Shown one piece after another: positions 33,555 to 59,507 of a DNA stretch of 64,000 nucleotides. The notes beneath the pieces are model-generated. The model searched no databases. It saw only the letters and a program-made list of their open reading frames with translations, and was not told the origin of the DNA. The stretch is from the NCBI GenBank assembly GCA_020628165.1, contig JAHDFM010000003.1:1-64000 (forward strand), in the 5' to 3' direction. The DNA is from Bdellovibrionales bacterium. Its GTDB lineage: Bacteria > Bdellovibrionota > Bdellovibrionia > Bdellovibrionales > UBA1609. The position numbers and the translations under genes are program-made. Numbering within the stretch: the stretch's first letter is position 1; every line of letters begins with the position of its first letter.

Positions 33555-36500
33555 ATGAGTAAGTATATTGCAATAGTAACGATCATGATATCAACGGCTT
33601 TTGTAGCCTTTAACTTCCAAAACTGTGCGAAATCAAGTTTTCAGTTAAGAGATGCACTTGATAGTAATGGAGTGACAGGTTTAACAGCGTTTCCAACCTC
33701 TTGTCGAGAGTACTATGAAAATGGATCCTGCCAAGATGGAGTCTATAAAGTAGATCCTGATGGCAATGGCATCGGCATGGAACCTTTCGATGTCTATTGT
33801 GATATGACTAATTACGGACGAACGCTTTTGATCAATGCTCCTGAAGCCAACTACACAAACATCCCTGAACTTCAAGAAGTGAAATCAATGACCACTTTAG
33901 GTCGACTCCCTGACAGTAAAATAGCTATCTTTTTAAACCTCACCCAAAACTCTCAACACAACAACGTAGTGGTTGACTTAGCAACGGGCCAAGACAATCA
34001 CACAGTGTCCTTAAACTCAAACTCTACATCCACTCAAGGTCAGTATGTCATTATGGACACTGCCAATGATCTTTGTGATGCTTACGATACGGGAGTGGAC
34101 GGAGCAGCTTATACGCAAGGGAATTATTGGCAATTTGGTAACGGTTCAGGCGACGGTTTCATCGGTTACCTAGATAACCAAACAGGAAACAACCCTTATA
34201 CTGGTTTCACTGTTGAGTTGCCAACAGGTACAGATAAGGCATGTAATATGGTCGGCCCAAAACAAGCGGCCACTTATTTAAAAGGATCTATGTGGATCGT
34301 TGAAGATCCAAACCCACACTCAGCGTGTGAGCAGCCACCGACAGCAGTGAATGGTGGTTGGACAGATTGGGCTCCGTGGACAGATTCAACAACTTGTGAT
34401 TCCGACTGTAATAAAACACAAAGTTCAGTGAGAACATGTACAAATCCGGAACCTGCCAATGGCGGTTCCGATTGTTCGTTATTGGATGGTGGTAACGCTA
34501 TTAAATATCAAACTACATCGTGTCAGCCGGGAGAAGGCCAATGTACAGCTCCGCCACAACCTGTCGATGGTAACTGGACCACTTGGAGCGGTTGGACGGA
34601 TACAAATACTTGTGATGTTTACTGTAACAAAACACAAAGTTCTACTAGAACTTGTACCAACCCTACACCTGTCTACGGCGGCAATGACTGCTCAGGTTTA
34701 GATGGTGGCAACTCTTCAAAAGTTCAAATCGTTCAGTGTCAACCGGGTGAAGGCTTATGTGCTCCACTTCCAATTCATGGCGGATGGACGTCATGGTCTG
34801 GTTGGGTTGATGATGGTCAATGTGATGCTTCTTGTTTGAAGCCACAAAAAAGAACACGTGAGTGTACAAACCCAACACCACAAAATGGCGGGAACGACTG
34901 TGCCCAGCTTGATGGTGGTAACGATACAGACACTAAAGTAGCTTCATGTCAGGATGGAGAAGGGCTTTGTAATGCCAACCCTCCTATCGATGGTAACTGG
35001 ACAGCGTGGTCACTATTTGCGCCACACACTCCTTGTACAGCTGATTGTACTAAAGAAGTCATTCAAGTAAGAACGTGTACTAATCCAGCTCCAATGAATG
35101 GTGGTAAAGACTGTTCAGATCTTGATGGTGGTAACGCACAAAATATTGAAGTTAGAAACTGTCAATATGGAGAAGGTTTATGTCAACCAGATCCGATCGA
35201 TGGTGGTTACACCCCTTGGACAAGTTGGACGCCAGTGGGTCAGTGTGATCAATACTGTAAACAACACTTTTCATCTTCAAGATCCTGTACAAACCCATTG
35301 CCACAATTTGGTGGTAAAGACTGTTCAGCTCTCGGTGACAGCATCAAATCATACGTTAAAGATTGTGATGTTGGAGAAGGCCTTTGTAATGGTTTAGCTA
35401 AAGTTATTATCTTAGGAACGAACCCAGAAAATTTTGGTGAGTTGAACCCTGGTAATGCTGGTGAGAGAGTTATCACTTACAAAAATGTGGGTGGGTTGGT
35501 TGCAACCAACTTACAACTTTCTGGCTTAGACAATCCTTTTGATTTCAAAGGTGGAAACCCGCCAGATGGATCTGATGGATCATGTCAGCAAGGTGGTTCT
35601 TTACAGCCAAACTCAGTCTGTACTGTCACTGTGAGTTTTGTTGAAACAACACCTGGTGAATATGATGACACATTGGTGTTAGATTATAACGACGGTCAAG
35701 AAGATGGTCAGTTGACTCGTGACTTAGTCGCGAAGGTCAAAGACGGCGTTGCTCCTGGTGAGTTGAATGTCACATTGATTGGTCCGGGTGATTTTGGAAC
35801 GACCCCTCCGGGCTCTCCAGTTCATCTTATAGTTAAAGTTAAAAATGAAGGTTCATTGCCAGCTGCGAATTTAGATGTTCCAGCCATTAACGAAATGTTC
35901 TACTTGAGAAATGGCAACGATCCAAGTGCTCCAGGAACCTTCCCAGGCACAGGTGGAACCTGTGATGAGAAACTTGCCGTAGGTGCAGAGTGTACAATTG
36001 CACTCACTTACAATCCACCTGAAAAAGGCACGCACACAGCAACACTCAACCTCACTTATACAAGTGATACCACAGACGCTATTCCACAAGCGGGAACGTC
36101 ACAACTTCCTTTGATTGGACGTGCTGATGAGAATTGCCCAACTTGTCCGATCGACGGTCAGTGGAGTCCATGGACGTCGTGGACGAAAAAAGGTGAGTGT
36201 GGACCTGACTGTAAAAAGCTATCGAAAAGATATAGACAGTGTAACAACCCTGCACCACAAAATGGTGGGAAAGACTGTGAAGGCCCTGCTGAAGAATCAA
36301 AAAACGAAACTTGTCAGCCAGGAGAAGACTTCTGTCCGCTTTTAGCGAAACTTGAAATTGATGGTAATAAGCAGTTTGGCACATTAACAGTAGGTGAGAC
36401 ATCTCCGAATCATACGTTCACGGTTAAAAACGTGGGTGGTCGCGATGCTACCAATGTTCAGCCATACGTCGTTCAAACGTTGCTTCCAACTTATTTCAAC

Positions 36501-39500
36501 TTAGTGGGCGGCACTTGTGACACTGTGAATACCTTGGCTCCAGCTGAAACGTGCACACTTGTTTACAACTATAAACCTGAAGCCAGTGGCACACATCAAT
36601 TAGAAATTGGTGCTACTTATAATGATGGTCAAGATGACCTTGAAGTGAAAACAACCATCGTAGGCTCTGCCAACGATAAGCCAGCAGCTCTTGAGATTGT
36701 TGGTAACGGTGACTTCGGTGAGCAAGAAGTGAACGGTTCAACTAAGAGAACATTCACATTAAGAAATATTGGTCAAAGACCAGCAACTAATATTAAGTAC
36801 AACGGTGTTGAGCTGCCATTCACAAGAAGTGGCGGAAACTGTACAGCCACTCTTAATGTGGGACAGAGCTGTACATTGATTTACACTTATTCTTCACCAG
36901 TCCCAGGTGACGATAAAGACATTTTAGAAATTCCATATAGCGATGGGGTTGCTAGCCAACAAATCACACAAATGTTAAATGGTAAAACAAAAGTGGATCC
37001 AGCTGACATTAAAATGGTTTGTATCCCGAAAAACGTGGGCAGTGTGCCAGTAGGTCAGAAAAAGACAGTGACTTGTACATTGAGCAATGTTGGTGGAGCA
37101 CCAGGTTCTGGCTTTACTTTAGCTCCATTAGGAGCTCCTTGGGCTCACACGGGTGGAAGCTGTGCCGCCGGTACAGTGCTTGCTCCTAAAGCGCAAAAAG
37201 ATCCACTACCGAAGCCAATGGTTAGAACATGTAACTATGTCTTTACATTTGCTCCAACACAGCCGGGTGATTATCCAGGTGTGGTGAACATCACTTACAA
37301 CAATGGTGATGGCAACTCTACAGTTGCAGATACGTTGAATGGTTCAAGCCCGAAACTTGCTCCAGCAAAACTGACATTCAATGGAGTGTACAACTTTGGT
37401 AACTTAACTTTAGGTACAGATCCTGCGAAGGTGCACACTTTCACAGTTAAGAACGTTGGCGGCTCAACAGCCACTGACTTGAAGCTTACAGATGTGAACG
37501 AGCCATTCAAAGTGGTGGGCGGAACTTGTAAATCAACTTTAGCTAAACAAGAAAGCTGCACTTACTTAGTTCAGTTTGAGCCAACTGAGTCGGGCACATA
37601 CCAAGACGATATTATCTTCAAATACAACAACGGTCGCAGCACTGTGAAGTTAGTGAAGAGATTGTCTGGAAGTGCCGACTACAACTTGGCCGCCTTGTCA
37701 GCTCGAATCAACCCAAGCAGAAACTTTGGTTTGGTCGATGTCGATACGAGCAAGCGTCATGTTGTCACAGTAACAAACCATGGTGGAGTTCCTGCAACAA
37801 ACATTGTGATCAGTGGTCTTGATTACCCGTATACACAAGTAGGAACTTGTCCGAGCACATTGGCTCCAGGTACAAGCTGTAGCTTCAACGTTGACTTCAA
37901 GCCTACAGAAGGTGGCACGTTCAACGATGAAATCATTATCGATTACAACAACGGTAAGCAAACACGTAAATTCACGTTCCCAATTGTCGGCCGCGCTAAA
38001 GAAAAGCCAGCTGAGCTCATGGTGAACTGTGAGTCGAACTTTGGTAACTTAACTAAAGGTCAACATGCAGACCGTACATGTACAATCACGAACATTGGTA
38101 AGCAAACAGCGAATACCATAGTTTACAACGGCTTTAAGTCGCCACCGTTCTACCCAGGAAAAGGGCAAGGCCTTTGTGGTCCAACTCTCGAAGCTGGCGA
38201 AACGTGTAACTACTACATTAGATACAAGTGTTTGAAAGATGGTGTCGACAATGACAAGTTCACAGTCAGATACCGTTCAGGTGCCAACAAGAAGTTGATC
38301 ACAGTTGTAAGAACTATTGTTGGAACTTGTAAAGCTGGTCCGAAACCAATCGATGGTGGCTGGACAAAGTGGAGTGGTTACGTCAAGCACGGTGGTTGTG
38401 TGAATGGAGTTCAGAAGTACAAGTCTTATAGAGAATGTACAGATCCAGCTCCATCTCATGGTGGTAAAGAGTGTAAAAAACTCAACGGCCAGTATGACCT
38501 TATCGAGTATCGTTATGATAAAAAAGAGTGTGGTAACTTAGGTCAGTGGGGCACTTGGAGTCCATGGCAGAAGCACGGAGCTTGTAAAAATGATAAGCAA
38601 AAGTACAAGCGTTCGCGTCAGTGTACGCCAGCGGGTAAACTTTGTAAGACTGCCTCTGGACAGCTAGCCACGTCTGAAACAACTTACGAAACGAGAGATC
38701 AGCAGTGTAGCACAGCAAAAGCCGTTCTTAAGTTCCAGTCTTGTGACAGCGAGCTTAAAGAAGGTGGGCAAGAGTTGTGTGGCATTAAGAATGTCGGTAA
38801 CTGTAAAGCGACCAACTTGAGATTGAGTGTGGGCGCTCCGTTCTTATACGGTCAGCCAGCAAGCAGTGCTTGTGGTCAAGGTGGATACTTAGATAAAAAT
38901 GTTGCCTGTAACATGAAGATCAGTTGTCCAAAACCATTAGGTTCTAAGGCAGCGACCTCATCGATCACTGTGAAGTACAATGATTGTAAAGGTGAGCAAG
39001 TTCTCAAAAAGTCTGTGAACTGTAAAGCTGACAATCCACCAGTGATACCTACTTGGGGAAGCTGGACAGCGTGGGAAGGTTCTGCGTGTGTGAATGGAAA
39101 GCGTAAGCAGTATAGATGGCGCATGTGTTTGCCAAACGGTCAAAAGTGCACGCGCAAAGATGGCAGCAAAGGAGCTAAAGAAGACGAAAGTCGCTTGATT
39201 AACGATCCAAAATGTCATGTGGCAGCTGAGTGTACAGTTGAGCCGTCCATCGGTACGGCCTTGCCGCCAGCAAATGTGGTGCAAGCTGAGTTTTCGAAAA
39301 GAACAGGTCGACCGTTCCATAAAATGTACTTACCACAAACGGGCAACCAGTTAACGCAAGCGTCTTACTCGCAGTGGAAGCAGTTCATCAAGTTTGAGAA
39401 GTGTAAATTCCCAGACGGTAAGATTGAGTGGAAGGTGAAAGACTACGTTACTCCAGTCAATAAGTGTAATGCTTATATGAAAAACGACAAGACAGTTCCA

Positions 39501-40562
39501 TGTTTGTTAGACAAATCGGGAAAGTGTATTAAAACTTGGTTAGATGGTATCAACCACGGTTACAGCTCTTGTATGTACAGAGTTCACAATGGTGGTGGAT
39601 TGCCACCAAAGGCGGGTACAAAAGTAATCAATGGTCAGAAACTTCACTTCTGTGATTTAGAAGCTTGTTTTGGAAGAAACCCAGCTTCTGAGTGCACAGG
39701 AACTTGGGGGAGTTGGTCAGACTATGGCTGTAACAAAAAAGGTTACAAAGCTAAGTGGCGTAAGTGTCCAGCTGGAAAAACATGTTGGGATGCTGTTAAG
39801 AAGCAATGTACGACTTCAATGGATGAGCACTCAACCACTGAAAAGTGTAACTCGACGGCACAGTGTGGTGGAGAATGGAAGCCTTGGAGTTCATGGAGTT
39901 GTGCCAAAGGTGGTTACTTTGCAAGATGGAGAAAGTGTGAGGACGGAAAGAAATGTTTGTCTGAATATTCAGCTCCAGGAACATGTCGTACGACAGAGGA
40001 TGATCACAAGACAAAAAGGAACATGACTTGTTCTCCGAACGTTACTTGTGGATTCCAGAAAGTGAACGACAAACATGTTTACATTCAGGCTGAGTGTTAC
40101 AACGAGATCAAAGCTGCTGGTGGTAACGAGTGGAAAATGATCAATAAATCAGGTGCATCTGCAGGGAAGGCCTTACAAGCTTTACCTGATAAGGGCACAC
40201 TAAGAAATGATAAGAGCAATTCACCAAGCATGATGTACAAGATTATGTTCCCTTCAGCGGGAAGATGGTATGTGTATGTAAGAGGTTGGGGTGATGCTGA
40301 TGGTTCTGGAAAGTCTAGAAACAAAGACAACACCAATGGTGAAGGAAAACGTGACAGTGTGCACGTAGGGATCAATGGCAACTTGTCGACAGCCAAAGCC
40401 ATGGATCACTTTCCAGCCAACAAATGGTTCGCCTCAAACGACCGTCGTGGAACAAATGCTAAAGCCTATATCGACGTTCCAAGTGCTGGTAAACATATGG
40501 TTTGGGTCTACATGAGAGAAGATGGTTTCATCATCGATAGGCTTGATTTTAAGAAGCCATAA
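33555..40562 (+). CDS. Giant surface lipoprotein: fibrinogen-like, TSP1-like, anchor-D and carbohydrate-binding-like modules
   Basis: A 2335-residue protein. The N-terminal signal ends in FQNC (Cys about 23), a non-classical lipobox. Residues about 46-100 resemble the first part of a fibrinogen-like domain (SCREYYENGSCQDGVY, then FDVYCDMT). Five thrombospondin type 1-like modules follow at about 266-610 (W-x-x-W, R-x-C-T-N-P, GG-x-x-C-x-x-L). Two HYDIN/choice-of-anchor-D modules, a sixth TSP1, six more anchor-D (about 929-1592), TSP1 7-8, anchor-D 9 and TSP1 9 come next. A unique region (1891-2045), TSP1 10-11 and a CBM-like beta-sandwich (about 2166-2335, YIQAECYNE... to FIIDRLDF) complete it. 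The product is probably an adhesin exposed on the cell or flagellar sheath surface. The upstream sigma-28 promoter suggests expression with motility genes. Confidence 0.85.
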   Translation: MSKYIAIVTIMISTAFVAFNFQNCAKSSFQLRDALDSNGVTGLTAFPTSCREYYENGSCQDGVYKVDPDGNGIGMEPFDVYCDMTNYGRTLLINAPEANYTNIPELQEVKSMTTLGRLPDSKIAIFLNLTQNSQHNNVVVDLATGQDNHTVSLNSNSTSTQGQYVIMDTANDLCDAYDTGVDGAAYTQGNYWQFGNGSGDGFIGYLDNQTGNNPYTGFTVELPTGTDKACNMVGPKQAATYLKGSMWIVEDPNPHSACEQPPTAVNGGWTDWAPWTDSTTCDSDCNKTQSSVRTCTNPEPANGGSDCSLLDGGNAIKYQTTSCQPGEGQCTAPPQPVDGNWTTWSGWTDTNTCDVYCNKTQSSTRTCTNPTPVYGGNDCSGLDGGNSSKVQIVQCQPGEGLCAPLPIHGGWTSWSGWVDDGQCDASCLKPQKRTRECTNPTPQNGGNDCAQLDGGNDTDTKVASCQDGEGLCNANPPIDGNWTAWSLFAPHTPCTADCTKEVIQVRTCTNPAPMNGGKDCSDLDGGNAQNIEVRNCQYGEGLCQPDPIDGGYTPWTSWTPVGQCDQYCKQHFSSSRSCTNPLPQFGGKDCSALGDSIKSYVKDCDVGEGLCNGLAKVIILGTNPENFGELNPGNAGERVITYKNVGGLVATNLQLSGLDNPFDFKGGNPPDGSDGSCQQGGSLQPNSVCTVTVSFVETTPGEYDDTLVLDYNDGQEDGQLTRDLVAKVKDGVAPGELNVTLIGPGDFGTTPPGSPVHLIVKVKNEGSLPAANLDVPAINEMFYLRNGNDPSAPGTFPGTGGTCDEKLAVGAECTIALTYNPPEKGTHTATLNLTYTSDTTDAIPQAGTSQLPLIGRADENCPTCPIDGQWSPWTSWTKKGECGPDCKKLSKRYRQCNNPAPQNGGKDCEGPAEESKNETCQPGEDFCPLLAKLEIDGNKQFGTLTVGETSPNHTFTVKNVGGRDATNVQPYVVQTLLPTYFNLVGGTCDTVNTLAPAETCTLVYNYKPEASGTHQLEIGATYNDGQDDLEVKTTIVGSANDKPAALEIVGNGDFGEQEVNGSTKRTFTLRNIGQRPATNIKYNGVELPFTRSGGNCTATLNVGQSCTLIYTYSSPVPGDDKDILEIPYSDGVASQQITQMLNGKTKVDPADIKMVCIPKNVGSVPVGQKKTVTCTLSNVGGAPGSGFTLAPLGAPWAHTGGSCAAGTVLAPKAQKDPLPKPMVRTCNYVFTFAPTQPGDYPGVVNITYNNGDGNSTVADTLNGSSPKLAPAKLTFNGVYNFGNLTLGTDPAKVHTFTVKNVGGSTATDLKLTDVNEPFKVVGGTCKSTLAKQESCTYLVQFEPTESGTYQDDIIFKYNNGRSTVKLVKRLSGSADYNLAALSARINPSRNFGLVDVDTSKRHVVTVTNHGGVPATNIVISGLDYPYTQVGTCPSTLAPGTSCSFNVDFKPTEGGTFNDEIIIDYNNGKQTRKFTFPIVGRAKEKPAELMVNCESNFGNLTKGQHADRTCTITNIGKQTANTIVYNGFKSPPFYPGKGQGLCGPTLEAGETCNYYIRYKCLKDGVDNDKFTVRYRSGANKKLITVVRTIVGTCKAGPKPIDGGWTKWSGYVKHGGCVNGVQKYKSYRECTDPAPSHGGKECKKLNGQYDLIEYRYDKKECGNLGQWGTWSPWQKHGACKNDKQKYKRSRQCTPAGKLCKTASGQLATSETTYETRDQQCSTAKAVLKFQSCDSELKEGGQELCGIKNVGNCKATNLRLSVGAPFLYGQPASSACGQGGYLDKNVACNMKISCPKPLGSKAATSSITVKYNDCKGEQVLKKSVNCKADNPPVIPTWGSWTAWEGSACVNGKRKQYRWRMCLPNGQKCTRKDGSKGAKEDESRLINDPKCHVAAECTVEPSIGTALPPANVVQAEFSKRTGRPFHKMYLPQTGNQLTQASYSQWKQFIKFEKCKFPDGKIEWKVKDYVTPVNKCNAYMKNDKTVPCLLDKSGKCIKTWLDGINHGYSSCMYRVHNGGGLPPKAGTKVINGQKLHFCDLEACFGRNPASECTGTWGSWSDYGCNKKGYKAKWRKCPAGKTCWDAVKKQCTTSMDEHSTTEKCNSTAQCGGEWKPWSSWSCAKGGYFARWRKCEDGKKCLSEYSAPGTCRTTEDDHKTKRNMTCSPNVTCGFQKVNDKHVYIQAECYNEIKAAGGNEWKMINKSGASAGKALQALPDKGTLRNDKSNSPSMMYKIMFPSAGRWYVYVRGWGDADGSGKSRNKDNTNGEGKRDSVHVGINGNLSTAKAMDHFPANKWFASNDRRGTNAKAYIDVPSAGKHMVWVYMREDGFIIDRLDFKKP

Positions 40563-50374: not shown

Positions 50375-50536
50375 GTGAAAAAGCTTTTTTGCGTCTTATT
50401 ATTTATATCTTTTTGTTTTTTGAGTCTCACGTCCTGTGACTCCACTCATAAAATCAATTCTGGAGATTCAAGCTCTTTATTTTCGAATGTTCTCTTTGGT
50501 CCGAGAGCTGATTGCAGAGGTTCATCATGCCTTTAA
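50375..50536 (+). CDS. 53-residue lipoprotein coupled to the giant anchor-D gene
   Basis: From GTG 50375, with AAGGAAGG 6 bases upstream, the frame encodes a signal sequence (KKLFCVLLFISFCFLSLTSC) with a good lipobox LTSC. A mature peptide of about 33 residues ends in CRGSSCL. Its stop lies 10 bases inside the next gene, so translation is probably coupled. It is too short for a domain call. A tiny lipoprotein next to a secreted giant protein may serve as its outer-membrane tether or exit partner. Confidence 0.7.
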   Translation: MKKLFCVLLFISFCFLSLTSCDSTHKINSGDSSSLFSNVLFGPRADCRGSSCL

Positions 50537-53500
50537 GACACTTGTTTTATTTGATCTTAGCATTTTTAATCTCTTTGAGTACTCATCAGGCAATGGCTGC
50601 AGATGCCACTGACCCAGCTAATCGTGCACGAGCTCTTTATTACTACATAGTTGGTCCTCCGGCAGGTGGATATCCTGCAGGTCATACTGGGCCGGCTACG
50701 GGTTTGTTTGCAAAGTTCAATCAGCTTATTTTTGACACCACTGTGGACACTGCATTTCAAGCAATGAATGTGACCCAGTGTTCAGATATTCCAAGCACTG
50801 GCTTTATGTCATTGCCGGCTCACTCACTCGGCAGTTTAAATTTTGAATTTTTAGCAGCTAGAAAAACAGTGCCAACTTTTTTCACTAAAAACTCAGGCAG
50901 TAACTTTCAAAAAGGAATACGAGTTCTCAATGGGCCAACTCAAATTGCCAATTTAGAATTGAACTGCCCAGACTCAGCTGGAACAGTCAGTGGTTATATG
51001 TCCACTCAAGATGGCACTCGCAACATTGAAGTGTTCTTTCAATATGAAGTGAATGGGTTGAGACGCCAAATTGAAGTGTTCTCAACAGACATTGGTGTTA
51101 ACACTGAAAAGTTTGTAGCCCGCATGGAAACAGTGAATGGCAGGGACTATGAAATGTGGAGTGTAAAAACATCGGATGATCCTTCTGCAGAATCTTTTGG
51201 AGTGGCAATTTCTGGAAGCACGCAAACTCAAAGAGCCAACATCAAAACAGTGAAAGACACAGACACAACTCCAGATAACACAGTTCCTGTGGATGAGGGG
51301 ATCTTAGCGTGTGTGAATTTACAAAACAATCAAACTGATGACACCGTATCAGCTTGTCCTGCCAACATTGAAGACCCTGTGGCCGACAGTAAGGGCGGAG
51401 ACTTTTCTATCAAATCGACAAGTGATGTTGTCGTCACTGTGGCGGAGCAGTTGTTAACGGATCAAAATATTTATGACTTTGGCGACTTACCAATGTCTAC
51501 TTTGGCCACACAAATCATTCAAATCACCAATAGCAACGCAGTTGATTCGGCAGCAAGTGTACAAGCACTGAACTTAACAGGGCCTTTTGAGTTCACAGGT
51601 GGCACTTACCCTGGAACAGGTGGTACATGCACGACGACATTAGCCGCTGGCGCATCTTGTTTAATAGAAGTATCAGTTATGCCGTTCACCGCTGGTGAGC
51701 AGTTTGGTTTTTTTGAACTTGCTTATGACATCACTTCAGCGCCGGTGCAGTCGTTTGTGACCACAGTAGCAATGCGAGTGAATGCAGTGAGCACGACAAG
51801 TGGAGCTTTGCTGGTCTTGAGCGAAGCTGACCCTTTTGACTTTGGCAGTAGAGCTATTGGCACGAGCAACCAACACACATTCACATTGTCAAATATAGGC
51901 AGTGCACAAGCTACGAACTTAACGGCCAGTGGTTTAACAAATCCTTTTAGTTTTGCAGGTGGCAGCTTCCCAGGAGCCGGGGGCACCTGTGGTGTTGTGG
52001 TTGCAGCAGGGACATCGTGCACACTTGTGTTAGAATTTATCCCGATCATTGCTAATACATACAACGCAACACTCACTCTTAGCTACTCCGGAAATATGAC
52101 AACTTTAACTAGAGCATTGCAAGCAACTGCTGCAGCAACTGGTTTTCTTGAAATCACAGACGCTGGCAATGTTGACGCTCACTTTGGTTCGGTCACAGTG
52201 GGTGGCTCTGTCATTAAATCTTTAACGGTCACAAACCTGGGTGGCACAAGTGTTACTAGCCTCGCAGATTCCGGTGGACTCACTGAGTTTGATTACTTGG
52301 GAGGGGCATATCCCGGAACGGGTGGTGACTGTGGAATCACTCTAGCCGGTGGTGCTAGTTGTACTTTGACAATGGTGTTCAACCCAACCTCAGTTGGTGT
52401 TAAGTCAGAACTTTTGACTCTTAATTATAATGATGGGGCTGTTGCAACCAGTGCCAGCATTGCTCTTATGGGAGATTCTACCACACCTGCGGTTCTTGCG
52501 TTGAGTGATCCGAACCCTTATAGCTTTGGCGGTGTGGCCACGTCGTTATCAGCCAATCGAATATTCACATTGGCTAACTTCGGAACGGCAACGGCAACAG
52601 CAATTTCTGAAGTGGGTTTAGCGGCCCCTTTTGCATTTACAGGAGGGGTGTTCCCAGGAGTTGGCGGGACATGTACAACACTTCTTGCAGCAGGAGCCAC
52701 GTGTTTGCTCGATATTGAGTATGCTCCGACAACCGTAGGTTCTTTCACAGATGATATTGACATCAGTTACAACGATGGTTCAACAACTGTGAATTTCACT
52801 CACACTCTTGCAGGAGACTCTGGCACGGCTGTGCTGACTTTATCAGATGTGAGTTACGACTTTGGTTCAATGTCGGTGGGCTTTTCAGGTCAACACGTGT
52901 TTGTAGTTTCGAACACTGGACTGATCGATGCAACAGCTATGACAGCTTCTGGTTTGGCAGCACCGTTTAATTACGTTGGTGGCACCTTCCCAGGCACTGG
53001 GGGAACATGCATACAAACTTTAGCAGCTGGTGCAAGCTGTACGATCAGAGTGCAGTTTAGCCCAACTGTTAATGGCACATTTTCTGATAATTTAGATATT
53101 AATTACAATGATGGGTTGAACGCACAAACTGTGTCTGCCAGTCTTGTCGGGACGGCAACTTCGGCGGCAGCCCTACAGTTTGCAGCGGCCAATCCGTATG
53201 ACTTTGGCAGCGCTGGTGTTGGAGCTGTTGTCAATCAAACTTTGACGGTGACCAATGCCGGTTCATCAGCAGCAACCTTGATTTCAGACAGTGGCTTAAC
53301 TCCTCCATTTTCATTCACAGGTGGTGCTTTTCCCGGAACAGGTGGAACCTGTGTAACTTCGTTAGCAGCAAATGCCAGCTGCACCCTTGCAATCAGTTTC
53401 AGTCCAACAGCTGCTGGTTCTTTCACTGACATTTTAACACTGAGTTACAACGACGGAGTGACGGCGCAGAGCAGTTCTATTGATTTTGTTGGTGCTGCCG

Positions 53501-55557
53501 CTGGGCCAGCTCTGTTAACACTTTCAGACACAGACCCCTATGACTTTGGCAATGTCGTTATCGGCACAACTCAACAACACACCTTCACCATGACTAATTC
53601 GGGAAACACCATTGCTAGCAACATTGCATCAACTGCCCTGACAGCTCCATTTGCTTTTAAAGGAGGGAGTTACCCAGGGGTAGGTGGCTCTTGTTTTACG
53701 AATCTAGCTGCTTTAGACACATGCACTTTGGTGGTGGATGTCAGTCCTGCAGCTGCAGGTGTTCTTAATGACACCTTAACTTTATCCTACAACGATGGCG
53801 TTGGCTCAGTGAGCTTGACCAAAAGTCTCACTGTCACCGGTGTTAATAGTTCTGTTCTCACCATTTCAGATGCCGACCCTTATGATTTTGGAGGTGTGAT
53901 TGTTGGAGCAACAACGACTCACATTTTCACTTTAACAAACGCAGGAACCACTGCGATTAGTTCTATTTCTGTGACAGGTTTAAGTGGTGACTTTAGTTTT
54001 ACAGGTGGGTTTTATCCTGGAACTAGTGGAACTTGTGGCACCACTTTAGCAGCGTCTTCGTCTTGTACGATAGATGTTCAGTTCTCACCAATTGCTCCAA
54101 GTGCAATAACAGCTACAATGACTGTGAACTACTTCAATGGATCGACGTTTCAAACAGCAACTAGAAGTTTAGTGGGAACTGGTGCAACTCCTGCAGTTCT
54201 CACCATTTCTGAGGCAGATCCTTATAATTATGGGTCTGTTGCTGTGGGCTCTACAACATCCCACACATTTACAGTGACAAATTCAGGGGGCGTATCGGCA
54301 ACGAGTATGAACGGTTCGGGCCTCGCGGCTCCTTACACATTTACTGGGGGAGTCTTCCCCGGTACAGGCGGGACTTGCTCAAGCACACTTGCAGCCGGCA
54401 CAACTTGCACATTAGTGGTTGAGTTTGCTCCAACAGTTGCCGGTGTGGCGTCTGATCAAATTGAAATCAATTACAATGACGGTGCTACTGCACAACTTGT
54501 ATCACGAGGAGTGACGGGTGGTGGTGTTGTGCTGGCATTGTTGTCTATTTCTGACGGACCTATTTATGATTTTGGCACTGTGGCTGTGAGTGCGACAGGC
54601 ATTCATACGTTCACTGTCAGTAACATAGGTTCAGGTACAGCCGTTTCTATGAGCGCTTCTGGTTTATCAGCTCCTTTTAGCTTTCAAGGGGGAGCTTACC
54701 CGGGAACAGGTGGAACGTGTACAACCACTTTGGCTACCTCGGCTTCATGCACAGTTGTAGTGGAGTTCTCGCCGACGGTATCTGGCACTTTCACTGCTGG
54801 TTTGTCTATGCAGTACAACGATGGTTCAGGGGCTCAAGTGGAAGTGCGTGACATGACTGGTGCGACCTCTGCTGTGGCTTCTCTATCAATCAGTGAGTCT
54901 GAGCCATTTAACTTTGGAAATCACACTATTGGCTCAATCACAACTCATACCTTCACCGTCACGAACTCTGGTTCGGGTGTGGCAACCACTATCAACGAAA
55001 TTGGCTTAGCTGCACCTTTCACTTTTGCTGGAGGTGCTTTTCCAGGGTCGAGTGGGACTTGCACCACCAACCTAGCAAGTGCCGCGAGTTGTGATATTGA
55101 AGTTGAATTTAGTCCAACGAGTTTAGGAACTTTCAACGACACTATTGAAATTGCTTACAACGATGGGATTGCTGCGCAAACAGCCACTCGAGGTGTAACA
55201 GGTCAAGGTGTTGCACCGGCATTATTAGTGATCAGCGAGGCGAACCCATATGACTATGGATCGATTTCTATGGGTTCAACCCAATCACACACCTTTACGA
55301 TCACTAACACTGGTGGCGCGACAGCCACGACTCTTTCGGGAACTGGTTTGGCAGCACCTTATTTATTTCAAGGAGGCTCCTACCCAGGAACGGGTGGAAC
55401 CTGCAGCCTCACTTTGGTGTCGAGCTCAAGCTGTACTGTCGTTATCGATTTTTCACCGACGACGACTGGAACCTTCACCGACACATTTGAAATGAATTAT
55501 AACGACGGCGGCAGCGCTCAGGTAGCGAATAGAGATCTCACGGGGCTTGGTATTTAG
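50527..55557 (+). CDS. Giant exported protein with twelve tandem anchor-D (HYDIN-like) modules
   Basis: 1676 residues from ATG 50527; a TTG 15 bases upstream is also open. The signal peptide is RHLFYLILAFLISLSTHQAMA. Residues about 25-310 form a unique N-terminal region with several Cys. From about 311 to the end lie twelve tandem modules of about 110 residues. Each contains Y-D-F-G, H-T-F-T-V-T-N, a Pro-Phe pair, GG-x-x-PGTGGTC, LAAG-x-SC and Y-N-D-G. Each module carries two Cys that probably pair. There is no C-terminal anchor, barrel or sorting motif; the protein ends at the boundary of the last module. It is likely a long rod-like extracellular protein, perhaps an adhesin or filament. Confidence 0.85.
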   Translation: MPLRHLFYLILAFLISLSTHQAMAADATDPANRARALYYYIVGPPAGGYPAGHTGPATGLFAKFNQLIFDTTVDTAFQAMNVTQCSDIPSTGFMSLPAHSLGSLNFEFLAARKTVPTFFTKNSGSNFQKGIRVLNGPTQIANLELNCPDSAGTVSGYMSTQDGTRNIEVFFQYEVNGLRRQIEVFSTDIGVNTEKFVARMETVNGRDYEMWSVKTSDDPSAESFGVAISGSTQTQRANIKTVKDTDTTPDNTVPVDEGILACVNLQNNQTDDTVSACPANIEDPVADSKGGDFSIKSTSDVVVTVAEQLLTDQNIYDFGDLPMSTLATQIIQITNSNAVDSAASVQALNLTGPFEFTGGTYPGTGGTCTTTLAAGASCLIEVSVMPFTAGEQFGFFELAYDITSAPVQSFVTTVAMRVNAVSTTSGALLVLSEADPFDFGSRAIGTSNQHTFTLSNIGSAQATNLTASGLTNPFSFAGGSFPGAGGTCGVVVAAGTSCTLVLEFIPIIANTYNATLTLSYSGNMTTLTRALQATAAATGFLEITDAGNVDAHFGSVTVGGSVIKSLTVTNLGGTSVTSLADSGGLTEFDYLGGAYPGTGGDCGITLAGGASCTLTMVFNPTSVGVKSELLTLNYNDGAVATSASIALMGDSTTPAVLALSDPNPYSFGGVATSLSANRIFTLANFGTATATAISEVGLAAPFAFTGGVFPGVGGTCTTLLAAGATCLLDIEYAPTTVGSFTDDIDISYNDGSTTVNFTHTLAGDSGTAVLTLSDVSYDFGSMSVGFSGQHVFVVSNTGLIDATAMTASGLAAPFNYVGGTFPGTGGTCIQTLAAGASCTIRVQFSPTVNGTFSDNLDINYNDGLNAQTVSASLVGTATSAAALQFAAANPYDFGSAGVGAVVNQTLTVTNAGSSAATLISDSGLTPPFSFTGGAFPGTGGTCVTSLAANASCTLAISFSPTAAGSFTDILTLSYNDGVTAQSSSIDFVGAAAGPALLTLSDTDPYDFGNVVIGTTQQHTFTMTNSGNTIASNIASTALTAPFAFKGGSYPGVGGSCFTNLAALDTCTLVVDVSPAAAGVLNDTLTLSYNDGVGSVSLTKSLTVTGVNSSVLTISDADPYDFGGVIVGATTTHIFTLTNAGTTAISSISVTGLSGDFSFTGGFYPGTSGTCGTTLAASSSCTIDVQFSPIAPSAITATMTVNYFNGSTFQTATRSLVGTGATPAVLTISEADPYNYGSVAVGSTTSHTFTVTNSGGVSATSMNGSGLAAPYTFTGGVFPGTGGTCSSTLAAGTTCTLVVEFAPTVAGVASDQIEINYNDGATAQLVSRGVTGGGVVLALLSISDGPIYDFGTVAVSATGIHTFTVSNIGSGTAVSMSASGLSAPFSFQGGAYPGTGGTCTTTLATSASCTVVVEFSPTVSGTFTAGLSMQYNDGSGAQVEVRDMTGATSAVASLSISESEPFNFGNHTIGSITTHTFTVTNSGSGVATTINEIGLAAPFTFAGGAFPGSSGTCTTNLASAASCDIEVEFSPTSLGTFNDTIEIAYNDGIAAQTATRGVTGQGVAPALLVISEANPYDYGSISMGSTQSHTFTITNTGGATATTLSGTGLAAPYLFQGGSYPGTGGTCSLTLVSSSSCTVVIDFSPTTTGTFTDTFEMNYNDGGSAQVANRDLTGLGI
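51463..55554 (+). repeat. Twelve tandem repeats of about 330 bases encoding anchor-D modules
   Basis: Consecutive units begin at the YDFG-type strand of each module and continue to the end of the gene. They are well conserved at the protein level (PGTGGTC and YNDG in nearly every copy) but diverged at the DNA level, so they are old duplications rather than recent slippage. Confidence 0.85.
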
Positions 55558-55619: not shown

Positions 55620-55812
55620 ATTTAGAGCGTATGTACAACTTATTGACAGGTCATTGATTTTTTTCCTTATCTTCGTCTCATGTCAGTTCGTTGAAATAAT
55701 TTCATACAAGAGGGCTCACTAACAGGAAGATAAAGTTATTTATGTAAAGAATTCTATGAGACAGATGTTTCTTATGGCACTTAAATTGCTTATATTCTTT
55801 TAGTTCTAATAA

Positions 55813-57024
55813 TTGTTAAACAGTGTGGGTCTTTGTATTTTTAAACTTTTACTTCTTCTTTTCTTTGTCCTGGAAAACCAAGCTGTTCATTCGCAGCAAA
55901 GGGTTCGAGATTGGTGCTGGGCACAGGTGCCTGGTGTCTCGGGAAGTTCTATTGCTCTTTCGAATGAAAGTATTCACAGAGACACTAACGAGACAAAAGA
56001 ACCTAAAGCGGCTTTAGTGCTTGAAGCAGTTATTGGTGATGAGATTGTTATAGAAGGTGATCTTTTAGCAAAAGCGACTCAGTTGATCGATGATCTTCCT
56101 TTTTCAGCTTATGATTATGAGTTGAATCCAATGAGTGTTGGCATTGAAGTTGAAGCGGCATTGCCATATGATTTTAGCCGTGCAGAAGCAGCAAAGTTTA
56201 TTTTATCAGAAGAGTTAAGCAAAAACAGACAATCGTTAGGTGATGACTTTTTCAGGAGGGCAAGGACGACTTCTGTATTTATTGATCCATTTCAAAAAGC
56301 GACGGGAGCTGATGAGTATTATGTCATCAATACTGTGACTGGAAAAAACACAGGTGTTTTGTTTGAGACTGACGTTGAGATCAGCGAACCAGAATTATTT
56401 CAAGGTGCTGAGATCACATCACCCATTATAGAGAACGTTACTGAATATACTGAATTTAAACGTCTTTTGTTACAGCTGAAAAGACAAGGAATGAATGTGA
56501 ATAAAGGTATCATTCAAAAAGCTGGCTTACATGTTCATGCAGATATGACGGGGTATTCTCAAGAAGAACTTGTTGTTTTATTGCTAGTTTACAGTTTGTA
56601 TGAAAATCAAATTTTTAAATACTTTAATCCAGATCAAGATCGCTTTTATCAAATTATGCCTTTTGCTGAAAGGTTTTTTCAATTTATGCAAGACGGGGAC
56701 CCATTAACTAAAACTTTTATCGATGAAGACGGGCGCATCCCTTATTTTGATGTTAGGTACTCTACATCAATTGGTTTTTTTAGTTTGGTTATAGGTAATA
56801 ACATTAAAGGGAGCACCTTAGAGTTGCGCGTTGGTAATACAAGCCTTGAAAGTGATGATATTGATAAACTCGTTTATTTCTTTGCTCACTTCGTAAAGGC
56901 GATTCGCTCAAAAGACATTGTTTTTTTTGAGATCGTAAAACGTCAGCTAAATGATAAGCAGTTAGATTTAACTGAAATTATATCTTACTTCGAAACTTTA
57001 GGTCAGCCACTTAAAAGCCAATGA
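55813..57024 (+). CDS. Exported amidoligase-like protein (COOH-NH2 ligase fold)
   Basis: A 403-residue frame. The start is uncertain (TTG 55813 or GTG 55825, no clear ribosome binding site) but the N terminus is a signal peptide (LCIFKLLLLLFFVLENQAVHS). Residues 108-116 read SVGIEVEAA, then EISEPELFQGAEITSPII near 190-206, GLHVHADM at 238-245 and LELRVGNTSLE near 333. These follow in order the G-x-E-x-E, g-x-E-x-x-SP, H-x-H and E-x-R motifs of the putative amidoligase family (glutamine-synthetase-like fold). Such enzymes join carboxyl and amino groups using ATP. An exported member is odd, since ATP is absent outside the cytoplasm. No partner enzyme is adjacent. Confidence 0.7.
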   Translation: MLNSVGLCIFKLLLLLFFVLENQAVHSQQRVRDWCWAQVPGVSGSSIALSNESIHRDTNETKEPKAALVLEAVIGDEIVIEGDLLAKATQLIDDLPFSAYDYELNPMSVGIEVEAALPYDFSRAEAAKFILSEELSKNRQSLGDDFFRRARTTSVFIDPFQKATGADEYYVINTVTGKNTGVLFETDVEISEPELFQGAEITSPIIENVTEYTEFKRLLLQLKRQGMNVNKGIIQKAGLHVHADMTGYSQEELVVLLLVYSLYENQIFKYFNPDQDRFYQIMPFAERFFQFMQDGDPLTKTFIDEDGRIPYFDVRYSTSIGFFSLVIGNNIKGSTLELRVGNTSLESDDIDKLVYFFAHFVKAIRSKDIVFFEIVKRQLNDKQLDLTEIISYFETLGQPLKSQ

Positions 57025-57548: not shown

Positions 57549-57737
57549 TTTTCATGAATGTACTTATTTAAACTGTTATTTGTCCATGTTTTTTCGAATG
57601 CAAGTGCTCTTGCTGACAAGTTTAGATCAACTGTTTGCAAACTACGAAAATAACAAAAAGATTATTAAAATTAAGAAGAATTAAGTATTTTTATTTTTTA
57701 GCTTATACTACGTTGTCATCTGTTAGCGGGGGCAGTG

Positions 57738-59507
57738 ATGAGTGTTTTAGTTCGTAGTTTAATAGGTGTTTTTTTAACTGTGTCTTTTTTGACTACATCC
57801 TGTACGAAAAAAAACAATCAACCCCCTCTCATTACACCTAAAGCCAACGGTAAAGTGGCTCAGTCATCACAACAAGAAGTTCCTCAGACAAGGCTTCACT
57901 TTGCTTTTGACCAAAAAGGGTTTCGTTTTCTGGGGAGGGAAAAAGTGAGCTCCTTTGCGACCGTTAATCCAATTTCTTTGCCAAAAGAGCTTTATGCAAA
58001 ATATCAAGGGTTCGTATTGGTTGATTCTGATAATAATTCTTTATTTGAAATTATTAAAAAGAATTTGATTCACTTTGAAAGTGAGTTTCACTCAGATTAT
58101 TCAGTCTATCAATACAAAGGCTATTTCTTTTTGGATGTTCCTGACAGTGTTGAACTTTCAAAGGTGGTAAAGCTGGGGATTCAAAATTTAGAAACCCAAC
58201 AAATGGAATACGTGATTGCAATTGATGATATAGAACGAATTCACGTTCCAAAAAATGAAGAAAATGATTGGGATGGAAAGTACAAGGTGTTTAAAGTTTT
58301 AGGGGATGATACTCCTGAAAGTTCTTACGATGTGGTCATATTAGCTGACGGGTTTTCAAGAGATGAAATTAGTCTCGCCTCAAAGTCAAAGATGTTTCAA
58401 TCAGTATTTGGTAAAAAACTTAAAGATTTAGTGTTACCGGCCTTTCAAACAGAGCCCTTTGTATCGATGTCCAATAATTTAAATGTCTGGGTTGTTGCGA
58501 CAGCATCTACAGATTCTGGAGCTGACTTGCCTAGTGAAGGGGTGTTTAAAAAGACCATATTTGACTCTACCTTTGATACCTACTGCAGTCGACGAAGTCT
58601 GACGGTCAAAAATCAAGAGAGAGCTTTACAAATGGCCGCCAAAACTCCTTTTGATCAAATCATAGTTATGGTCAATAGTGATATATATGGAGGGCAAGGT
58701 TCTGATATTTCAACCTTTAGTTTGAATGAACGAGCAACATATCTTATTCGCCACGAGCTGGGCCACTCTATTGGTTTGCTTGCTGATGAGTATAGCTTTT
58801 TTAGCGATAAAGAAAATCAAACTGATTGTGAAGACACTCAAATCGTTCAATACGCATACCATAAACATAAAACATGGGGTCGGAATCGCTTATTTGATAA
58901 GGATAATTTATTAGCCCCCAATTTAACTTTACATAGTAATGTTCAAGATGCTAAGTGGTCATACCTTTTGGACTCTAAATCTCCTATCATTTACTTTGAT
59001 TACCCAACAGATTATAATAAAATTACATTTTCTGATCCAAACTCCATGACTGTGAGTTCAAATTATCAATTGCAACACAATCAAAAGGATTTGATTTTAA
59101 TGTTTGGCCCAAAAGATAATATCAATGAGTTTACAAGATACACTCAAAGTGTATCGATCAATGGCCAACCTATTGATTTTTCGTTAGTTAAGACAAAGCA
59201 TCTATATTTTATAAAAACAAAAAGCACCAAGTTTGAACAAGGTGATAAGTTAAACGTTGTGATCAGGTTGAAATCGGATAAGCCTTTTAAAGAAGGCCGG
59301 GAGAGTTACTACAGCTCGAGTCAACACTTCTTAACCATTGCTAGTGATACCTTTGCAGGAGGAAGTGAGATAGGTTTATTTCAAGGTGCTATTCAAAGTA
59401 TGACTGAGGTTTTTAGATCATCTTACAACAGTATCATGAACGGTGGGGATGAGTTTGATCAATTACAAATTGATTCCTATGTGTCTTTGATGGAGTACTA
59501 TAAATAA
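57738..59507 (+). CDS. Lipoprotein peptidase of the M64 (IgA peptidase) family
   Basis: 589 residues from ATG 57738 (an in-frame GTG lies just before it). The signal ends in a lipobox TTSC at about Cys22. An N-terminal beta-rich region precedes the peptidase domain. That domain starts near 195 with DVVILADGFSRDE, has FNVWVV-like strands (NLNVWVVATASTDSGAD), and at about H339 the zinc motif HELGHSIGLLADEY. This matches the M64 pattern HExxHxxxxLxDEY. A C-terminal Ig-like region follows. It is probably a zinc endopeptidase anchored in the envelope and facing outward. Its target (prey or self proteins) cannot be told. Confidence 0.85.
   Translation: MSVLVRSLIGVFLTVSFLTTSCTKKNNQPPLITPKANGKVAQSSQQEVPQTRLHFAFDQKGFRFLGREKVSSFATVNPISLPKELYAKYQGFVLVDSDNNSLFEIIKKNLIHFESEFHSDYSVYQYKGYFFLDVPDSVELSKVVKLGIQNLETQQMEYVIAIDDIERIHVPKNEENDWDGKYKVFKVLGDDTPESSYDVVILADGFSRDEISLASKSKMFQSVFGKKLKDLVLPAFQTEPFVSMSNNLNVWVVATASTDSGADLPSEGVFKKTIFDSTFDTYCSRRSLTVKNQERALQMAAKTPFDQIIVMVNSDIYGGQGSDISTFSLNERATYLIRHELGHSIGLLADEYSFFSDKENQTDCEDTQIVQYAYHKHKTWGRNRLFDKDNLLAPNLTLHSNVQDAKWSYLLDSKSPIIYFDYPTDYNKITFSDPNSMTVSSNYQLQHNQKDLILMFGPKDNINEFTRYTQSVSINGQPIDFSLVKTKHLYFIKTKSTKFEQGDKLNVVIRLKSDKPFKEGRESYYSSSQHFLTIASDTFAGGSEIGLFQGAIQSMTEVFRSSYNSIMNGGDEFDQLQIDSYVSLMEYYK

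Follow-up and report, generated by a model that had tools for sequence, protein, structure and literature searches.

Since ATP is cytoplasmic, the enzymes that use it to form amide bonds are assumed to be so too, and the gene studied here raised the question of whether a bacterium exports such a ligase with an intact active site and, if so, what would power it. The gene lies in the window, that is, the whole 64,000-nucleotide stretch that was analysed (positions 1 to 64,000 of contig JAHDFM010000003.1, assembly GCA_020628165.1) from a Bdellovibrionales bacterium. The Bdellovibrionota include predators of bacteria. A sequence-only reading of the window had described the open reading frame at 55813-57024 as an amidoligase with a signal peptide. 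Proteins of the Amidoligase_2 family (PF12224) are reportedly glutamine synthetase (GS)-like carboxylate-amine ligases of phages, bacteria, and fungi. The features of the gene were as follows; E1 is the clade of closest relatives described below.

55813..57024, + strand: open reading frame of a putative exported PF12224 amidoligase (clade E1), 403 aa (ORF call and profile scores)
55813..55893, + strand: Sec signal peptide, residues 1-27, predicted cleavage between VHS and QQ (rule-based scan and inspection)
55894..56112, + strand: linker, residues 28-100, pLDDT mostly <50 (AlphaFold2 model)
56113..57021, + strand: predicted GS-like catalytic domain, residues 101-403 (structure comparison)
56140..56154, + strand: GIEVE (G110, E112, E114), predicted metal-binding strand, invariant in 16/16 E1 proteins (E1 alignment)
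56407..56424, + strand: AEITSP (E200, P204), invariant in E1 (E1 alignment)
56524..56538, + strand: GLHVH, with H242 invariant and H240 in at least 90%; HxH motif shared with glutamine synthetase (E1 alignment)
56818..56844, + strand: LELRVGNTS, with E337, R339, and N342 invariant and T335 directly ahead of it; ExR motif shared with glutamine synthetase (E1 alignment)

Family assignment and predicted fold

The protein matched PF12224 at residues 108-355 (E 1.9e-6, 28.4 bits versus a cut-off of 22). All four motifs of the family (GxExE, ExxSP, HxH/QxN, and ExR/HxR) were present in order, as GIEVE at 110-114, AEITSP at 199-204, GLHVH at 238-242, and LELR at 336-339, and the same order and spacing appeared in 0 of 20,000 shuffles of the protein, so that the family claimed by the sequence-only reading was upheld. 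An NCBIfam search assigned the protein no name, and a PDB sequence search returned only chance matches, to gingipain. The AlphaFold2 model, built with 15 relatives, had a mean pLDDT of 69.8, rising to 80-92 over most of the catalytic core, and a pTM of 0.69. Its domain best matched glutamate-cysteine ligase (Z 12.9, 240 residues aligned, rmsd 4.1), followed by YbdK (Z 11.5), glutamine synthetase (11.1), Dop (10.8), and PafA (10.7), and each of the best 50 structural matches listed came from the GS superfamily. Foldseek with the same model was marginal (best E 9e-4, glutamine synthetase). The fold predicted for the catalytic domain is that of the GS superfamily, in agreement with what the earlier reading had proposed to check. 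Glutamate-cysteine ligase, YbdK, and glutamine synthetase have this fold and the HxH and ExR motifs in common with the window protein, but they are cytoplasmic and only 9-15% identical to it in sequence. PafA and Dop, the Pup ligase and depupylase, also have the GS fold, and Dop is proof that it can hydrolyse amides; both are cytoplasmic and bound up with Pup and the proteasome, unlike the predicted exported protein.

Amidoligase clades in the Bdellovibrionota

PF12224 matches were found in 68 of the 369 genomes of the phylum that were surveyed. The proteins sorted into four clades (cyt, E1, E2, and E3) and a set of helicase fusions, all recovered by the tree. The cyt clade consisted of 11 ordinary paralogues, mostly with QxN and HxR motifs and without signal peptide. 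E1 held 16 proteins, including that of the window, with HxH and ExR; E2 held 13, mostly with QxN and ExR, and E3 held three. In the tree, E1 and three helicase-fused proteins formed a supported set (98/92). These three (L027, L034, and L035) carry the PF12224 domain behind a DEAD/ResIII helicase and have no N-terminal export segment, although one is truncated there; the match of the signal-peptide rule in L035 was internal and false.

An E1 profile built without the window protein scored it at 128.5 bits (E 1.6e-41), whereas a phage PF12224 profile gave 30 bits and the profiles of all other clades gave <16. The protein was the most divergent E1 member, with a best identity of 26% and a long branch, and was the single PF12224 copy found by profile search of its genome. 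The distribution of E1 among relatives was patchy: one of the three congeners searched had an E1 protein, in an 812-aa form. Collection scans were run with a five-row E1 alignment, the 16-row alignment being too diverse, and the nearest named records were uncultured Bdellovibrionales and Bacteriovoracaceae MAGs.

Weak similarity to the PF12224 domain (IELVTPK, GGHIN, AEFRxFN) was seen at residues 540-880 of about 24 long proteins, of 890-2140 aa, encoded at the following loci.

L046, L048-L052, L054, L056, L057, L059-L065, L068-L075: long proteins with a weak PF12224-like domain

Most of them had a signal peptide or lipobox, with about one per genome in one family, and they possibly represent a fourth exported group. 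A first guess that those of about 1000 aa were DUF2126 proteins found no Pfam support.

Conservation of the active site

The residues invariant across the 16 E1 proteins, which are about 20% identical to the window protein, were G110, E112, E114, E200, P204, H242, F271, R277, T335, E337, R339, and N342, with H240 nearly so. They fall in motifs that we take, from motif order and not from a bound structure, to be those binding metals and nucleotide in glutamine synthetase. Invariant metal/ATP-site residues in proteins whose remainder has diverged down to ~20% identity are the pattern expected from selection on catalysis. The alignment thus indicated that E1 as a clade has retained the putative metal/ATP site, and the loss of site residues that would have spoken against the sequence-only reading was not found.

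Export signals

For the window protein and its relatives alike, signal peptides were identified with a rule-based scan together with visual inspection. The window signal peptide, MLNSVGLCIFK-LLLLLFFVL-ENQAVHS followed by QQ, has one Lys, an 11-residue hydrophobic core with a mean Kyte-Doolittle value of 2.9, and a V-x-S cleavage site; the same scan and inspection found no lipobox in this N-terminus. The start codon is TTG, right behind an in-frame TAA, and an alternative GTG start lies 4 codons downstream; the signal sequence is kept with either. An export-type N-terminal segment was present in 16/16 E1 proteins, in every E2 and E3 protein, and in four further proteins found with the E1 profile (L308, L309, L310, and L311). 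Both the Sec-type signal peptide itself and its conservation in relatives, which the earlier reading had put forward as a check, were therefore borne out by these calls. Apart from L005, an E1 member that looked more like an uncleaved anchor, the segments of the three clades were of type I or had a lipobox, the latter in six or seven of the 16 E1 proteins; the signal peptide of L067 was called by eye because its end falls right at the domain.

In contrast, no signal peptide was found in the 11 cyt paralogues with all starts tried, in 79 of 80 phage PF12224 loci (the remaining one being doubtful), or in 76/76 PF12224 loci on genome contigs outside the phylum. These controls start close before GxExE, with a median of 6-8 residues ahead of it, which leaves no room for a signal peptide. 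Nor was one found in 20 PF12224 loci of the phylum to which a Lentisphaerae genome belongs, although in a few the conserved start was preceded by a hydrophobic stretch. The rule is lenient, since 46% of neighbouring ORFs pass as well, in part because membrane proteins are also marked. With one fixed start per gene, it was passed by 21 of 24 exported-clade proteins versus 100 of 215 neighbours (p about 1e-4). Single calls are therefore weak, and the weight rests on the contrast with the non-exported paralogues. Export of amidoligases, as predicted from these N-termini, is a phylum-wide trait with three exported clades, E1, E2, and E3. A phage origin of the export signal was unsupported: a viral scan gave many phage PF12224 genes and no exported clade.

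Twin ligases and their partners in clade E2

The E2 amidoligase was usually fused to a C-terminal R2K-type ATP-grasp ligase domain (seven sampled cases), and exported BPL_N/GATase1-like genes were found next to three E2 loci, a fourth lying 2.4 kb away from an E1 locus in a genome (G029) of the same family as that of the window.

L249 7320-9716; L252 7143-9602; L253 5859-8357; L254 3840-6155; L255 304-2649; L248 6068-8347; L250 6424-9951: exported amidoligase and R2K ATP-grasp in one chain
L239 4379-5107; L249 9755-10510; L252 9855-10679; L254 3083-3856: exported BPL_N/GATase1-like proteins

The R2K ATP-grasp assignment was above the Pfam cut-off in two proteins, and the landmarks of the domain were conserved, including IESNPxGNS. 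An AlphaFold model of one E2 fusion (mean pLDDT 82) had a GS-like fold at residues 33-351 (Z 11.0) and, in the same chain, an ATP-grasp fold at residues 383-720, which matched LysX/ArgX (Z 12.5), as well as RimK and D-Ala ligases (Ddl). In genome G098, an exported ATP-grasp-like gene adjoins a short exported amidoligase. The BPL_N/GATase1-like protein carries a Cys elbow (GFCAGA in L239). The G029 E1 locus also encodes two more exported proteins: one at L239 5360-7555, whose IucA/IucC match of 23 bits falls below the cut-off of 25, and one of 971 aa at L239 8735-11647, which the E3 profile matches at 31.9 bits.

Members of the R2K clade of ATP-grasp ligases (CDC123, R2K_2, and R2K_3; PMC4431377) thus supply a second ligase domain fused to or beside the exported amidoligases of E2, whereas the window protein lacks such a domain and an R2K_2 search of its genome gave none; this absence is weak, since the R2K_2 search matched nowhere. 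Other pathways are known in which peptide ligases of different folds are linked (PMC4431377); what is unusual in the E2-type systems is the export of all parts. The gene picked out by the sequence-only reading is not one odd gene: by their predicted signals and domains, its relatives form a phylum-wide set, some of them joined physically to an exported ATP-grasp ligase.

Proposed activity and source of ATP

We favour the reading that the window gene encodes a secreted, catalytically intact GS-like amidoligase, an extracytoplasmic carboxylate-amine ligase, with a probability of about 0.5. Its parts differ in strength. That the protein is an exported GS-fold protein with an intact site is very probable, whereas the chances that it works extracellularly as an ATP-dependent ligase are about even, and its target may belong to prey, which we suggest only tentatively. 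After Sec export the protein would fold in the periplasm or outside the cell. By analogy with the family, ATP-Mg would activate a carboxylate as an acyl phosphate, which an amine would then attack; likely targets would be extracellular peptides, proteins, or wall peptides. Since Sec exports unfolded chains, a nucleotide would not be carried along, and ATP must be met outside. It would come from another opened cell, such as prey cytoplasm or lysed neighbours, and not from the cell's own cytoplasm. Such a supply is conceivable where a bacterium opens other cells or has lysing cells around it. A literature search on ATP in prey gave nothing direct, and no report of exported amidoligases was found in the open-access literature searched.

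A narrower form of the favoured reading holds that the protein is a secreted predation effector, acting in opened, ATP-rich prey by tagging prey proteins or wall peptides. Export, the patchy distribution, as in conflict genes, the nearest named relatives from a lineage with known predators, and the precedent of R2K ligases as predicted conflict effectors (PMC4431377) all speak for it, but Sec alone reaches only the cell's own periplasm or the outside, and several E1 relatives are lipoproteins held on the membrane, so that we regard it as a possibility well short of even odds. Those lipoproteins would sit on the cell's own envelope, as would suit a role in synthesis or editing of its own surface, in amide cross-links or a peptide coat made with ATP that has escaped from this cell or its neighbours. 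A glutamine synthetase has been linked to the poly-glutamate/glutamine of mycobacterial walls (PMC3852478), which also favours such a role; however, the window gene has no wall or capsule genes next to it, and we consider this unlikely, more so than an effector.

The remaining alternatives concern the activity itself. The amide hydrolase Dop has the GS fold and needs a nucleotide as cofactor. Dop and PafA were among the structural matches, and hydrolysis of an amide needs no ATP supply; the protein could thus be a Dop-like amidase or deamidase that runs the reaction in reverse, or without net ATP use, with a bound nucleotide or another phosphate donor. The cofactor of Dop is itself an obstacle, as the unfolded chains of Sec cannot bring a bound nucleotide, and the ATP-grasp ligase fused in E2 argues for synthesis, leaving this reading rather improbable. 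Loss of the reaction with the fold kept, in a binding protein or pseudoenzyme, would fit the scarcity of ATP outside cells and the fact that no exported member has a known activity, but exactly the metal/ATP-site residues are invariant in proteins otherwise so diverged, and we judge it somewhat less probable still. Least likely, and by a clear step improbable, is that the N-terminal segment is a mere membrane anchor on a cytoplasmic domain, with nothing unusual about the protein. The calls by rule and the anchor-like L005 would allow this, whereas positive residues before the hydrophobic core put the domain outside by the positive-inside rule, and cleavage sites and lipoboxes recur in relatives.

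With the secreted ligase as the favoured reading, it may be, though we hold it to be doubtful, that Bdellovibrionota make amide bonds with ATP outside the cytoplasm through exported GS-like and ATP-grasp ligases, drawing the ATP from other cells and modifying prey or extracellular peptides. Repeated export, within one phylum, of ATP-dependent ligases of two unrelated kinds, their active sites intact and the two sometimes in one polypeptide, would imply that extracellular ATP is available for use or that the reaction is powered in a new way. If true, this would yield a testable prediction on the use of prey ATP and would add a new class to the modifications of extracellular proteins and peptides.

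Neighbourhood of the window gene

Partners of the E2 type (R2K ATP-grasp and BPL_N) were not among the neighbours of the window gene. Profile searches of its genome gave no match to BPL_N and none to the ATP/ADP translocase family PF03219, although the latter search matched nowhere and so says little. The only neighbour common to the window and other E1 loci was a glutathione-transferase-like gene, recurring once, 3 kb away, which was judged to be chance. Gaps of 167-255 bp separate the amidoligase gene from its + strand neighbours, which gives no clear operon. Just 5' of the gene, at 55755-55802 on the + strand and in a different frame, lies a 15-codon frame, MRQMFLMALKLLIFF*, probably by chance. 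Downstream come the genes of an exported protein of 118 aa and of a lipoprotein peptidase of M64 type, the latter at 57735-59507 (+) with an M64 (IgA peptidase) domain at 106 bits. Upstream, 50512-55557 (+) encodes an exported protein of 1681 aa built from repeated ASH/HYDIN Ig-like domains, and 33555-40562 (+) a 2335-aa exported protein with, by eye, many thrombospondin-like and ASH-like repeats.
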